Below, piece after piece: positions 2,764-23,255 of a stretch of 24,097 bases of DNA (position 1 is the stretch's first letter; every line of letters starts with the position of its first letter). The notes under the pieces were generated by a model. It saw only the letters and a program-made list of their open reading frames with translations, was not told the DNA's origin and made no database searches. Made by a program: the position numbers and the translations under genes. Origin of the DNA: a virus; IMG/VR virus record IMGVR_UViG_3300010885_050605, positions 1 through 24,097 of that record. One strand, written 5' to 3'.

Positions 2764-2808
2764 GCCCTATTCTCCCAGGCGTTGTGGTTGAGCGAAGCCG
2801 TGGCGCTG

Positions 2809-3219
2809 CTAGGCCGCCGGCAAGGGCTCGGGTTGATCCTCGATCTCGACGCCCGCAATCGAGCGATCCTGCATCAGCCGGTACATCAGGCCGTCCTTGC
2901 CCATGTAGTCCTGCCCGGCGTACTTCTGGAAGAAGATGCGCACGCCAGGGACCGGCCGCGCGCCATCCCACCGCGTCAGGCGATCGCTGTCATAGGCGAA
3001 TGCCTGCGATCCAGTAGCCACCAGCAAGCCGGTTGTCGCGGCGTAGCCCTGCGTCTCCTGGATCGACTCTGGGATGATGATGCTGCCATGGGTTGGCATC
3101 GGCTGGTCCGGCAGCACCAGCACCTTGTCGCACAACGGTTGAATGCCAGACCGGTTTGCGCCGCCCCAGGCAGCCGGCCGGAACTGGCCGAATTGCGTGT
3201 CCAGAATGCGTTCTTCCAT
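2809..3219 (-). CDS. GroES-like co-chaperonin (Cpn10 fold)
   Basis: A 136-residue protein. After a phage-specific N-terminus of about 24 residues comes IQPLCDKVLVLPDQP, matching the start of GroES-type proteins (I.PL.DrV.V). Next is a likely mobile loop, PMPTHGSIIIPESIQET (about residues 40-56), then GYAATTGLLVATG, matching the G.V.avG strand. PVPGVRIFFQKYAGQDYMGKDG (split here between VRIFF and QKY in the fold) matches the GD.V.f..y.g strands, and LMYRLMQDRSIAGVEIE matches the closing strand. Such proteins cap GroEL; T4 gp31 is the classic phage example, needed to fold its capsid protein. The gene lies among head genes, so a similar role is likely. A GAGGACTGAGA leader precedes the ATG and the upstream gene ends 3 bases earlier. 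Confidence 0.75.
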   Translation of the reverse strand: MEERILDTQFGQFRPAAWGGANRSGIQPLCDKVLVLPDQPMPTHGSIIIPESIQETQGYAATTGLLVATGSQAFAYDSDRLTRWDGARPVPGVRIFFQKYAGQDYMGKDGLMYRLMQDRSIAGVEIEDQPEPLPAA

Positions 3220-3221
3220 TC

Positions 3222-3692
3222 TCAGTCCTCTTTTCCGTCAGGGTTCAGTTTCGAGATCAGCAAGCGACTGGTGATAATGCCGAGACCCACCGTCAGCATC
3301 GAACTCAGCACCGATCGGCTTTGGAGCAACTCGGCCTGGTTGATGGCCACAAAGGTTGTGATTTCCCAGACCGGCTTCTGGCGCCAGTAGAAGTGCAATT
3401 TCTTCCACTCGGCGCGAGGTGCGAGGGTTTCGGCGTAATCCTCCACCGCGTAGAGCCACCAGGATACCGCCCGAGCCTCGTCGCGGAACATGATCGGCGG
3501 CTGACGCCCTTCCTTGATCACGCCGCCCGACATGACGGTGACGTACGGCTCGTCGCAAGGCGCGAAGCCCATGTCCCGAGCGCCCACGTCGGTTTCGGTG
3601 CCATCAGGCGCGACGTGATAGGCCGGCATCCCCATTTCTTCATGGACGAGGAACCAGCTTTCGACTTCAGCGATCGCATCAAGGATTTTCAT
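3222..3692 (-). CDS. Hypothetical protein in head operon
   Basis: A 156-residue protein starting MKILDAIAEVESWFLVHEEM. I do not recognise its family. The first 100 residues are mixed alpha/beta with many Trp (WWLYAVEDYAETLAPRAEWK). The C-terminal part has a hydrophobic stretch, SVLSSMLTVGLGIITSRLLI, that could be a membrane helix or a buried helix. Its ATG overlaps the stop of the preceding 38-residue gene as ATGA, and its stop lies 2 bases before the GroES-like gene, so it is translated as part of the head operon. A virion or assembly role is possible but not shown. Confidence 0.6.
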   Translation of the reverse strand: MKILDAIAEVESWFLVHEEMGMPAYHVAPDGTETDVGARDMGFAPCDEPYVTVMSGGVIKEGRQPPIMFRDEARAVSWWLYAVEDYAETLAPRAEWKKLHFYWRQKPVWEITTFVAINQAELLQSRSVLSSMLTVGLGIITSRLLISKLNPDGKED

Positions 3693-3805
3693 GCGGCCTC
3701 ATGCTCCATGGGTTCTTGCTGCACCGGCGGGACAGGCAACCACCGCTCCCACACCTGATCCCAGAGGGGAGGCGCGGGATCAGGCAGCCGGGGAATGTCG
3801 GTCAT
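3689..3805 (-). CDS. Small hypothetical protein, 38 residues
   Basis: A 38-residue frame starting MTDIPRLPDPAPPLWDQVW and ending QQEPMEHEAA. It exactly fills the space between its neighbours, with an ATGA overlap at both ends: its ATG overlaps the stop of the 117-residue gene upstream, and its TGA overlaps the ATG of the 156-residue gene downstream. That double coupling is the main argument that it is real, and it is easily missed by length cut-offs. It is Pro- and Trp-rich with no recognisable domain. Function unknown. Confidence 0.5.
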   Translation of the reverse strand: MTDIPRLPDPAPPLWDQVWERWLPVPPVQQEPMEHEAA

Positions 3806-4155
3806 GGCCGAATCTTGCCGGCGTCTTCATCGGCGCGCTCGCCCAGGCCGTAGAAGCCGCGCACCTGATCCAGCGAGAGGCTTTCGACGTGATGCGCCGC
3901 CAGGAGGTAGCCGCGCGCCTCTTGCTCACCGTTGAGCGACAGGTTGCCGCTCAACCAGCCATTGATCGCCTGCTGTTCAAGCGCCGCCCGGAAGTCCGGC
4001 AGGTAACGCTGGAGCAGGAGCACCGAGATTGGGTGCCGGCGCCATAGCGCCCATTGATCCGGGCCCAATTCCGCCAGGAGCGCCGGGATTTCCGCCGCCT
4101 CCCCCGCCGCCTGGTCCAGATTGATTTTCGGCCGCTGATAGGGTGGCAAAGGCAT
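3802..4155 (-). CDS. Hypothetical helical protein overlapping portal 3' end
   Basis: A 117-residue protein starting MPLPPYQRPKINLDQAAGEA. It contains DQWALWRRHPISVLLLQRYL, a W..WR.HP.t..ll..L pattern I have seen in small phage proteins encoded next to portals, followed by a helical region with LNGEQEARGYLLAAHHVESL. The first 179 bases overlap the end of the portal gene in another frame. There is no later Met in the frame. A GAGGA ribosome site lies about 9 bases before the ATG. The stop overlaps the ATG of the next small gene as ATGA. The function is unknown; an assembly or virion role is a guess from position. Confidence 0.55.
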   Translation of the reverse strand: MPLPPYQRPKINLDQAAGEAAEIPALLAELGPDQWALWRRHPISVLLLQRYLPDFRAALEQQAINGWLSGNLSLNGEQEARGYLLAAHHVESLSLDQVRGFYGLGERADEDAGKIRP

Positions 4156-14574: not shown

Positions 14575-15111
14575 TCACCCGGCATGGGCCCAGACACCGC
14601 GCCGGACCTTGGCCGCGCCACCTTGTCGCGTAATACCGTGCGCCTCGGCAGCCAGAGCGATGGAGCCGAACCGCCCGAGCGGAGTAACGACGGCACGCGA
14701 GCGCGGATGGCCGTCACCACGGATCCCAAGATGCGACCCGCGGGGCTTGCCCGAAGCGATGCGCGCAACCGTGGTGCGCTCGACAGCCACCGCCCGCACG
14801 TCAGCCGGTATGTCCGCGGCGTTCTCTTTATGCGTCGCTGCATAGACGTTGCCGACCTCATACGCGCCTGCGTCGCCGTACCGCGCCATGACATACTCGC
14901 CGCGCCGACGCCCGCGCCTGGCGTCAGGACCGAGCGCCAGGAGTGCAGCATCCCACCACAGATGCCATCGCAGCACGGTGAACCCGAACCGGATACCACG
15001 ACGCGCCGCCGCGTTCCGATGCGCGCGCCATGCTTGATAAGAGTATTCCGGGATACCGTGCGCCGCTTGCTCCCGTCGCGCGGCCTCATACGCACTCGAT
15101 ATGCGCGCCAT
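14575..15111 (-). CDS. HNH-like homing endonuclease with NUMOD1-like C-terminus
   Basis: A 178-residue basic protein. Residues 48-100 contain RWHLWWDAALLALGPDARRG, then GEYVMARYGDAGAYEVGNVY and AATHKENAAD. The Y.m.R.gD.G.y..gNv......N pattern is one I associate with small phage HNH-like endonucleases. Residues of about 141-172 (VVTPLGRFGSIALAAEAHGI) fit the NUMOD1-type DNA-binding repeat of homing enzymes (tplG.F.s...AA..hgi). AAGGG lies upstream of the ATG. It follows the small terminase on the same strand, 71 bases downstream. Long frames on the other strand here look like shadows. Confidence 0.65.
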   Translation of the reverse strand: MARISSAYEAARREQAAHGIPEYSYQAWRAHRNAAARRGIRFGFTVLRWHLWWDAALLALGPDARRGRRRGEYVMARYGDAGAYEVGNVYAATHKENAADIPADVRAVAVERTTVARIASGKPRGSHLGIRGDGHPRSRAVVTPLGRFGSIALAAEAHGITRQGGAAKVRRGVWAHAG

Positions 15112-21504: not shown

Positions 21505-21729
21505 TTAAATCTCATTTCCCCGACGATCATCCGTGATTTGATCCAAAGGACCATCAGGCAAAATGAACGGCGCACGACGAAGCGCCGCTTTCGCAGATCC
21601 AGTCAGCCGGCCTATAGCGGTTGCGTCTTCCCTGGCAGGAAGGCCCGCGGTGACAATCATTTTCAGGACTTCGAATTCGGAATTGGTGCAGTTGATCCGA
21701 TAGCCGGCTTTGAGGCGCACGATTTTCAT
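21505..21729 (-). CDS. Small hypothetical partner of the methyltransferase
   Basis: A 74-residue protein starting MKIVRLKAGYRINCTNSEFE. Residues 17-50 (SEFEVLKMIVTAGLPAREDA, TAIGRLTGSAKAALRR) resemble a winged-helix or helix-turn-helix layout. Its ATG overlaps the methyltransferase stop as ATGA, so the two are coupled. It might regulate or assist the enzyme. No family is recognised. Confidence 0.55.
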   Translation of the reverse strand: MKIVRLKAGYRINCTNSEFEVLKMIVTAGLPAREDATAIGRLTGSAKAALRRAPFILPDGPLDQITDDRRGNEI

Positions 21730-23234
21730 GTTTGCTCTTTCTGGTGATGTTGCAGGATAGCCCGACCAATCAGTTCCGGGATTTGCGGCACGACCGCGTT
21801 GCCCAGGCCGATTAGCCGCTTACGCCGGTCCACTTTGTCGGCGGCGTCGGTGACTACGCGGCTAACTCCATCTTCCCAGCCCGGCCCCCAGGTTCCCACA
21901 AGGCCGGCATCCTCCCGGCGATTGCGCGCCCTGTCCGCTTTGCTGCCGAGTGCCAGAAGTCGTGGCACGTCTTGCATAGGGTCTGAATGTTTTCCGGTTC
22001 GTTGTTCGCAGGGTTCTGATCCACATGATGCGCCTGGCATTGGCTGGTCGTTCCGCACGCTTCGCAATTCGGCAGCCGCATCCGGCGAGCGCGCCAGTGC
22101 AGCGTTCCCAATTTGGGAGCGACAATCACCCTCGCCAGTCCCCTGCAAGTGTGATTGCAGAATACACGCCTGCGATAAACGCTTCGATCCTCCAGCCTCC
22201 CATTCATCCTCTTGCGTGCCATCGCTTGCCCGCATTGCCGACATTCTTTGTCGTCCACTTTGATCTGATGGCGCCCCATCTAGTCCTCCAATTTTGTCCA
22301 GCCGTCCGGGAAGCCCATCAGTCTTTCTACCCACGTCGGATTTAGCTGACCTCCAACCTGTTCCGGTAGTTGCGGCGTATGCCCATTCTCCGATCGACCC
22401 CGGCCCGATCGAAAGTCTCGCGCGGCCGGACTGGCGAACTTGACCGCCGTGTTCAGATTGTCCGGCGCCCGGGTTGCCAACCGCTTGGCCGACATGCCCT
22501 TGCTTTCCCCGCCTTCCACCGTCGGCGTTGGCCACATCCGCCCGCTCAACGCCTCGATGAAGCTGCCCGACTGGTTCTTCCGGTGGAACCGCTCCGCCGC
22601 CGCAGGCGACAGGTTGGCCGTCACGCCACCATCTGCCGTCGGCGTTGGCCACAGCATCCCCTTGCGCGCCATGCCTTCCAGCGTCGGCGTCTCGTTGATC
22701 CGATCGCCAGACCGGCTCGATCCCCCGCCCATCGGCACAACAGGGGTAGGCAACAATCCAGATCCGGTCTCTCTGGTGAGGCGCACCAATGGCGGAAGCC
22801 GGTATGCAATGCCATTCCGCATCATACCCGAGCGCGGCCAAGTCCCCGAGAACAACGTCAAGCCCCCGTCCAAGGAGTGCTGCGACGTTTTCCACGATGA
22901 CGTACCGAGGCTGTAACTCGCCAACAAGACGGGCGATCTCAGACCATAGGCCAGATCGCGCGCCCGCCAATCCTTCGCCGTTTCCGGCAACGCTGATGTC
23001 CTGGCAGGGGAAGCCGCCACAGATAACGTCAGGAACAATTCCTGTTGCTGTAAGGTGTTGGGCGGAGAGGGTTCGAACGTCATTGAAGATGGGCACCTTT
23101 GGCCAGTGTTTCGCCAGGACGCGACGCGGGAATTCTTCGATCTCACAGAAGGCCACGGTTTCGAAACCGCCAGCGCGTTCCAGCCCCAAACTGAAACCGC
23201 CGATACCACTGAAAAGATCCAGAACCTTGAACAT
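21726..23234 (-). CDS. dcm: DNA cytosine-5 methyltransferase
   Basis: A 502-residue C5 DNA methyltransferase, which moves a methyl group from S-adenosylmethionine to cytosine in DNA. ATG at 23234 is preferred (AGGA 5 bases upstream); a TTG at 23246 adds four residues. Motifs: I, VLDLFSGIGGFSLGLE (4-19); IV, GGFPCQDIS with catalytic Cys77; VI, ENV (115-117); VIII, QRDRIW (154-159); IX-X, RLIGLGNAVVPQIPELIGRA near 473-492. The region between VIII and IX is about 310 residues, far longer than usual for this short family, with repeats of VANADG. That part also encodes other proteins in a second frame. It probably protects phage DNA or is an orphan enzyme. The symbol marks the family only. Confidence 0.88.
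   Translation of the reverse strand: MFKVLDLFSGIGGFSLGLERAGGFETVAFCEIEEFPRRVLAKHWPKVPIFNDVRTLSAQHLTATGIVPDVICGGFPCQDISVAGNGEGLAGARSGLWSEIARLVGELQPRYVIVENVAALLGRGLDVVLGDLAALGYDAEWHCIPASAIGAPHQRDRIWIVAYPCCADGRGIEPVWRSDQRDADAGRHGAQGDAVANADGRWWRDGQPVACGGGAVPPEEPVGQLHRGVERADVANADGGRRGKQGHVGQAVGNPGAGQSEHGGQVRQSGRARLSIGPGSIGEWAYAATTGTGWRSAKSDVGRKTDGLPGRLDKIGGLDGAPSDQSGRQRMSAMRASDGTQEDEWEAGGSKRLSQACILQSHLQGTGEGDCRSQIGNAALARSPDAAAELRSVRNDQPMPGASCGSEPCEQRTGKHSDPMQDVPRLLALGSKADRARNRREDAGLVGTWGPGWEDGVSRVVTDAADKVDRRKRLIGLGNAVVPQIPELIGRAILQHHQKEQT
21854..22279 (-). CDS. HNH endonuclease encoded inside the methyltransferase gene
   Basis: A 141-residue protein starting MGRHQIKVDDKECRQCGQAM. An N-terminal zinc site (C13, C16, C41, C45) is followed by the HNH core: NCEACG (C72, C75), AHHVDQNPANNEPENIQTLC (H84, H85, conserved Asn near 93 and 97) and KTCHDFWH (C102, C105, H110). 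This is a complete HNH fold with zinc ligands. A GGAGG ribosome site lies 6 bases before the ATG. The gene is entirely within the methyltransferase gene, in a shifted frame on the same strand, and starts directly after the stop of the other nested frame. It may be a homing-type enzyme or part of a restriction-like pair. Confidence 0.8.
   Translation of the reverse strand: MGRHQIKVDDKECRQCGQAMARKRMNGRLEDRSVYRRRVFCNHTCRGLARVIVAPKLGTLHWRARRMRLPNCEACGTTSQCQAHHVDQNPANNEPENIQTLCKTCHDFWHSAAKRTGRAIAGRMPALWEPGGRAGKMELAA
22280..23209 (-). CDS. Second long frame nested in methyltransferase gene (WPTP-repeat type)
   Basis: A 309-codon frame shifted by one base against the methyltransferase, ending one base before the HNH start. 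It contains ARTSALPETAKDWRARDL, GTSSWKTSQHSLDGG, FSGTWPRSGMMRNGIAYRLP, repeats of LPTP/WPTPTADGG/WPTPTVEGG, and QLNPTWVERLMGFPDGWTKL. I recall these phrases as recurring in phage proteins annotated as hypothetical or methylase-like, always opposite C5-methyltransferase motifs. The first start (GTG 23209) has no clear ribosome site, so translation might start inside, at Met codons such as the one in SGMMRNG, or by frameshift. Whether it is truly made is open. Confidence 0.45.
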   Translation of the reverse strand: MVSAVSVWGWNALAVSKPWPSVRSKNSRVASWRNTGQRCPSSMTFEPSPPNTLQQQELFLTLSVAASPARTSALPETAKDWRARDLAYGLRSPVLLASYSLGTSSWKTSQHSLDGGLTLFSGTWPRSGMMRNGIAYRLPPLVRLTRETGSGLLPTPVVPMGGGSSRSGDRINETPTLEGMARKGMLWPTPTADGGVTANLSPAAAERFHRKNQSGSFIEALSGRMWPTPTVEGGESKGMSAKRLATRAPDNLNTAVKFASPAARDFRSGRGRSENGHTPQLPEQVGGQLNPTWVERLMGFPDGWTKLED

Positions 23235-23255
23235 CCATTTCCTCAAACAAAAATC

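Follow-up and report, generated by a model that had tools for sequence, protein, structure and literature searches.

Split C5 methyltransferases with overlapping genes have previously been represented by a few enzymes. The gene for the small subunit of M.EcoHK31I reportedly lies within the gene for the large subunit, in another reading frame, and M.EaeI is a further relative. M.EcoHK31I and M.AquI are established as C5 enzymes composed of two polypeptides (PMC3404938). In M.EcoHK31I, the larger subunit carries motifs I-VIII and X and the smaller polypeptide carries motif IX; the recognition domain was placed in the larger subunit, an assignment that is itself a prediction (PMC3404938). In M.AquI, the alpha subunit comprises motifs I-VIII, and the beta subunit comprises the distal recognition region and motifs IX-X (PMC3404938).

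This study investigated a methyltransferase locus in a viral sequence record that is 24,097 bases long and contains terminase and portal genes; the whole of this stretch is referred to as the window. In its motif layout the locus resembled M.EcoHK31I, with motifs I-VIII and X in a putative large subunit (frame A), motif IX in a putative small subunit (frame B), and the gene for B nested in that for A in the +1 frame. It differed from M.EcoHK31I in that selection, measured among relatives, placed the recognition region in the smaller subunit, with A neutral there. Compared with M.AquI, motif X of the window stayed in alpha and beta was fully nested, whereas the layouts of the phages Samy and Eesa and of the relative L070 were similar to that of M.AquI. 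The locus also differed from the monomeric M.HhaI, in which the recognition domain and motif IX lie in the same chain. The kind of enzyme is known; its prevalence, the location of the recognition region in the beta subunit, and the shifting of motifs IX and X from one frame to another appear to be new. The open-access papers searched contained no description of phage C5 enzymes with a nested beta subunit, and the prevalence of this arrangement may still be reported elsewhere.

Two overlapping frames in the methyltransferase locus

A sequence-only reading of the window had noted two long frames on one strand over 22280-23209, one with methyltransferase motifs I (in part), IV, VI, and VIII and the other with recurring phrases such as SSWKTSQ and WPTPT. 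Both frames were indeed open on the minus strand, with B in the +1 frame relative to A (Table 1). The motifs were located in A in the expected order, as LDLFSGIGG (motif I), GGFPCQDIS (motif IV), ENV (motif VI), and RDRIWIVAYP (motif VIII), and were followed by motif X, which lies beyond that interval. Every quoted phrase was located in B. The 18-base repeat said to link VANADG in one frame with WPTPTADG in the other was present in two exact copies where none were expected, and the link held. An in-frame ATG is likely a better start for B than the GTG of the mechanical open reading frame; no clear Shine-Dalgarno site was identified ahead of this ATG. Two further minus-strand open reading frames of the window, at 14575-15111 and 504-1094, matched phrog_16521 (E=3e-15) and phrog_37556 (E=1.9e-10), respectively, both of unknown function.

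Table 1. Positions of the features of the methyltransferase locus in the window
Feature	Position	Strand	Description
Frame A (predicted alpha subunit, C5-cytosine DNA methyltransferase)	21726..23234	-	ATG at 23234, 502 aa; TTG at 23246 possible, 506 aa
Motifs I-VIII of A	23222-22743	-	motif coordinates; followed by unconstrained linker
Motif X of A	21818-21756	-	
Frame B (predicted beta subunit)	22280..23083	-	likely start ATG at 23083, 267 aa; putative PTP-repeat recognition region and motif IX
N-terminal part of B		-	beta-rich
Mechanical open reading frame of B	23209..22280	-	GTG start, 309 aa
Stretch coded in both frames	22743..22900	-	A: motifs VI-VIII; B: SSWKTSQ..WPRSGMMRNGIAYRLPPLV
SSWKTSQ in B	22900-22871	-	
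FSGTWPRSGMMRNG.. in B	22852-22784	-	
Putative recognition region of B	22346..22742	-	LLPTP, WPTPTADGG, WPTPTVEGG; VANADG-rich linker in A
WPTPTADGG in B	22651-22625	-	
WPTPTVEGG in B	22534-22508	-	
18-base repeat, copy 1	22519..22536	+	exact match; codes WPTPT in B and VANAD in A
18-base repeat, copy 2	22636..22653	+	exact match
Motif IX in B, LNPTWVERLMGFPDGW	22345-22298	-	
HNH endonuclease open reading frame	21854..22279	-	in B's frame, inside A, with motif IX before it and motif X after it

Protein features of A and B

We analyzed the proteins encoded by both frames using profile searches and AlphaFold2 (AF2) models. Protein A lacked the small domain of a C5 enzyme: its match to PF00145 (E=1.5e-41) was confined to model positions 1-161 of 324, and Foldseek aligned 166-167 residues of its core with M.HhaI (rmsd 1.6). 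The model of A was confident at residues 1-166 and at about 451-502, which contain motif X, and was mostly below a pLDDT of 50 at residues 177-418. The recognition region and motif IX, which share one chain in a monomeric enzyme, were absent from A and were both located in B.

Protein B matched phrog_1008 (E=2.8e-34), as did all 53 of its aligned relatives. This family is labeled "DNA methyltransferase", a label that is silent on its being an overlapping subunit; in Streptomyces phage Samy, it has an annotation as a gene of its own. The AF2 model of B was poor (mean pLDDT, 59.8) except for the strands at residues 37-77 (WKTSQ..IAYRL) and the motif IX helix. This weak model matched no known fold in the PDB, and among viral models it matched one phage methyltransferase, by sequence-level similarity. 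A search of the PDB with motif IX alone returned chance hits only and no C5 enzyme. A profile of motifs IX-X, built from relatives that carry both motifs in one frame, matched DRM-type plant enzymes (E=2.3e-4) and residues 270-318 of M.HhaI (E=0.03), and single relatives of this type gave a weak, below-cut-off match to PF00145 near positions 277-322. The identity of motif IX in B is thus supported indirectly, through the profile from relatives. The designation of a recognition domain in B is a predicted one that draws on where the region lies, on the selection acting there, and on motif IX. PTP-like repeats in the B tail numbered 0 to 8 among relatives, with more repeats in longer tails (r=0.75).

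Occurrence of the second frame

To estimate how often the overlap would be open by chance, we permuted synonymous codons in the window. Permuting the codons of A gave an expectation of 3.0 stops in B, which was free of stops in 1.3% of the permuted sequences; permuting those of B gave an expectation of 7.2 stops in A, which was free of stops in <0.05% of them (<1 in 2000).

We then fetched 80 viral loci by using the N-terminus of A alone, because loci found with B would be biased by how they were found; these loci are the 80 closest to the window and do not represent C5 enzymes as a whole. The +1 frame was open across the 75 codons of motifs VI-VIII in 79 of the 80 loci (11.5 expected), and the +2 frame was open in none of them. 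The tail of B was present in the +1 frame of 78 of the 80. The pair of A and B also occurred in isolated phages and in 73 of 80 bacterial-genome loci, which were chosen by B. A was almost never found without B in the sampled loci. Second-frame stops, which the sequence-only reading had named as evidence against a gene if common in close relatives, were rare in the relatives examined. The corresponding +1 frame of the monomeric enzyme of Staphylococcus phage CUB-EPI_14 (L256) contained 38 stops.

In the records examined, mostly the A frame alone was annotated. A plasmid search yielded one match for B, itself nested. Among E. coli genomes, two chromosomes carried a related gene, and the one inspected was marked as a pseudogene there. 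In the E. coli PCP07014 prophage (L258), the related methyltransferase at 2807-3568 is annotated as a pseudogene with an internal stop.

Selection in each frame

The sequence-only reading had allowed for two possibilities: that B is a genuine overprinted gene, or that it echoes, out of frame, a strongly conserved enzyme. We shuffled the synonymous codons of A and scored B with a model from which near relatives were omitted. In the window, B scored 123.2 bits over motifs VI-VIII (the core) compared with 59.6 +/- 9.3 bits after shuffling, and its tail scored 95.6 bits compared with 7.5 +/- 6.5 bits. The median excess over shuffles was 4.5 bits in an upstream control region, 54.7 in the core, and 69.7 in the tail. 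The results revealed that the echo is real but accounts for only approximately half of the similarity of the B core and for little of that of the tail. The +2 frame was also tried as a negative control within the overlap, but shuffling A there alters bases that B holds constant; as this compromised the control, we relied on the upstream region and on counts of stops.

We further conducted the overlap-aware selection test that the earlier reading had proposed. The test was run on relatives, as the window itself is without a close relative, and used 41 disjoint pairs with an OLGenie-like site-class method in our own simplified implementation; a Jukes-Cantor correction and a bootstrap over pairs were applied, and phylogeny beyond the disjoint pairing was ignored. 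In motifs I-IV, the dN/dS was 0.09 for A and 0.81 for B. Across motifs VI-VIII, the values were 0.23 and 0.53 (0.47-0.60), respectively. In the recognition region, they were reversed, at 1.59 (0.97-2.95) for A and 0.12 (0.07-0.22) for B. The last 45 codons of B, which contain motif IX, yielded 0.43 for A and 0.26 for B, and the region after B, which contains motif X, yielded 0.07 and 0.81, respectively. The most variable codon position was the third position of A in motifs I-IV and X and the third position of B in the recognition region, and diversity at the fourfold sites of A decreased from 0.63-0.70 to 0.29-0.56 over the overlap.

On the basis of the regional dN/dS values and the agreeing variability of base positions, the coding order along the DNA is A, both frames, B only, both frames, and A only. 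B was under purifying selection beyond what A explains and is a real, conserved gene. The dual coding proposed for the whole interval accordingly held for motifs VI-VIII and for motif IX; in the recognition region, A is merely open and neutral, and B alone is constrained.

Natural variants of the motif layout

Most relatives had a layout similar to that of the window minus the HNH insert. In the phages Samy and Eesa, A ended after motif VIII and B contained motifs IX and X. Motif X was also carried by B in L032 and L070, as in M.AquI, and motifs IX and X were together in the small subunit, the M.AquI arrangement, in L008, L009, and L070. In L089, L092, L205, and L219, both motifs were located in A and B held the recognition region only. 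L070 and L089 are close relatives of each other, with motifs IX and X in B in the former and in A in the latter. In L228, the recognition region and motifs IX and X were all in the frame of A; this locus is from a metagenome assembly, and a sequencing error is possible. These natural variants indicate that motifs IX and X move between frames and that the pieces together constitute one enzyme. A separate observation was made in the methyltransferase gene of Paenibacillus polymyxa plasmid pAP1 (L093, 879-2369), where frame B contained two copies of motif IX with no recognizable HNH sequence between them; this arrangement may have been left behind by an element since lost, or it may reflect a duplication.

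Interpretation of the locus

The selection on both frames, the motif content, and the recurrence of the pair are evident at the sequence level, and on these grounds the locus very probably encodes a split C5 methyltransferase as separate alpha and beta subunits, in the manner of M.EcoHK31I and M.AquI. Alpha would comprise the catalytic large domain (SAM binding, the PCQ of motif IV, and motifs VI-VIII), a disordered linker, and motif X. Beta would comprise a small beta-rich N-terminal part, the PTP-repeat target-recognition region, and motif IX. One message would serve both subunits, with beta translated from its own start inside the alpha gene. The two would assemble as a heterodimer to form one active methyltransferase, in which beta supplies motif IX and picks the DNA sequence to be methylated. 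The phage probably uses the enzyme to mark its own DNA against host restriction. B would thus be an overprinted gene, one of the two alternatives of the sequence-only reading, although one that encodes the other half of the same enzyme rather than an unrelated protein. In this subfamily, the N-terminal part of beta may exist only as the +1 reading of motifs VI-VIII; we tentatively suggest that it arose by overprinting of the core of the enzyme, and that the two halves have since remained inseparable within one stretch of DNA, in phages as in many bacterial phyla.

Three other explanations were considered. That B is a mere echo of a conserved core in GC-rich, stop-poor DNA draws on the finding that shuffled A codons reproduce approximately half of the similarity of B over motifs VI-VIII. 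However, the large excess over shuffles, which is greatest in the tail, a part in which A lacks conservation, the strong constraint on B in the recognition region, and the contrast between the open +1 frame, the closed +2 frame, and the stop-rich +1 frame of the monomeric enzyme are all against it; the echo-only reading was ruled out by the shuffle and selection tests, and its probability is negligible. Under programmed ribosomal frameshifting, one polypeptide would combine motifs I-VIII, read from A, with the recognition region and motif IX, read from B; this is consistent with the parts summing to one normal C5 enzyme and with the layout of L228. Such a mechanism is nevertheless unlikely because B is constrained over motifs VI-VIII, upstream of where the shift would occur; furthermore, motif X lies in A in most loci, such that a second shift back would be needed, and A is maintained free of stops as far as motif X, including over the HNH insert.

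B might also be a separate DNA-binding or counter-defence protein that overlaps the methyltransferase without joining the enzyme, as could be suggested by the absence of a known fold for its model. We consider this improbable: B supplies the motif IX and the recognition region that A is missing, motifs IX and X occur in either frame among relatives, and A scarcely occurs alone in the sampled loci.

The split-methyltransferase reading has several implications. What was previously a few enzymes becomes a large phage and bacterial subfamily that is mostly under-annotated, and subfamily records annotated as single "DNA cytosine methyltransferases" are probably half enzymes. The hidden frame alone carries the recognition half, and the corresponding part of the visible frame is a neutral linker. 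It would mislead to clone just the annotated frame or to deduce specificity from the linker of A.

Endonuclease genes nested in the locus

The HNH open reading frame of the window starts at the stop of B (TAGATG) and matched the PHROG HNH family (E=2.3e-8). Frame A was open across it, although 5.8 stops were expected (P=0.0008). HNH homologues occupied the same place in L112, with A open (P=0.0006), and in L183, where A is open in the real sequence and in none of 5000 shuffles. By inspection, the same HNH layout was observed in Komagataeibacter phage phiKX1 (L257). A pattern scan of viral contigs identified no HNH relatives, L112 and L183 having surfaced by another route, and an Rfam scan identified no self-splicing intron around the HNH gene.

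The ShiLan domain is described as an out-of-frame HNH insertion in a phage methylase that leaves no in-frame stops in the host gene, with no intron or intein detected (PMC11855218). The HNH gene of the window has a similar layout: it occupies another frame within a methylase gene, and the methylase frame contains no stops across it. A nested beta subunit goes unmentioned in the passages on this element (PMC11855218), although the methylases of mycobacteriophages SG4 and Hades contain a nested B. The neutral linker in A may explain how homing endonucleases sit there without breaking the host frame.

Other nested elements were observed. In L133, motif VI of A is the insertion site of a LAGLIDADG-like endonuclease sequence (3374-3832) that reads in frame B; A has no stops across this sequence, where 4.2 were expected (P=0.003). 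Staphylococcus phage CUB-EPI_14 carries a single-frame C5 methyltransferase (842-2647) with a related HNH sequence in the +1 frame before motif IX, and the host frame is open across this sequence. In phiKX1, the region at 838-2495 contains a methyltransferase-like frame with B and HNH, and the record annotates only "hypothetical protein" fragments. In L112, a second copy of motif IX (LREWLMGFPLGWT) occurs in frame B after the HNH stop at about 4313, which looks as though the 3' end of B came with the element or was copied by it.
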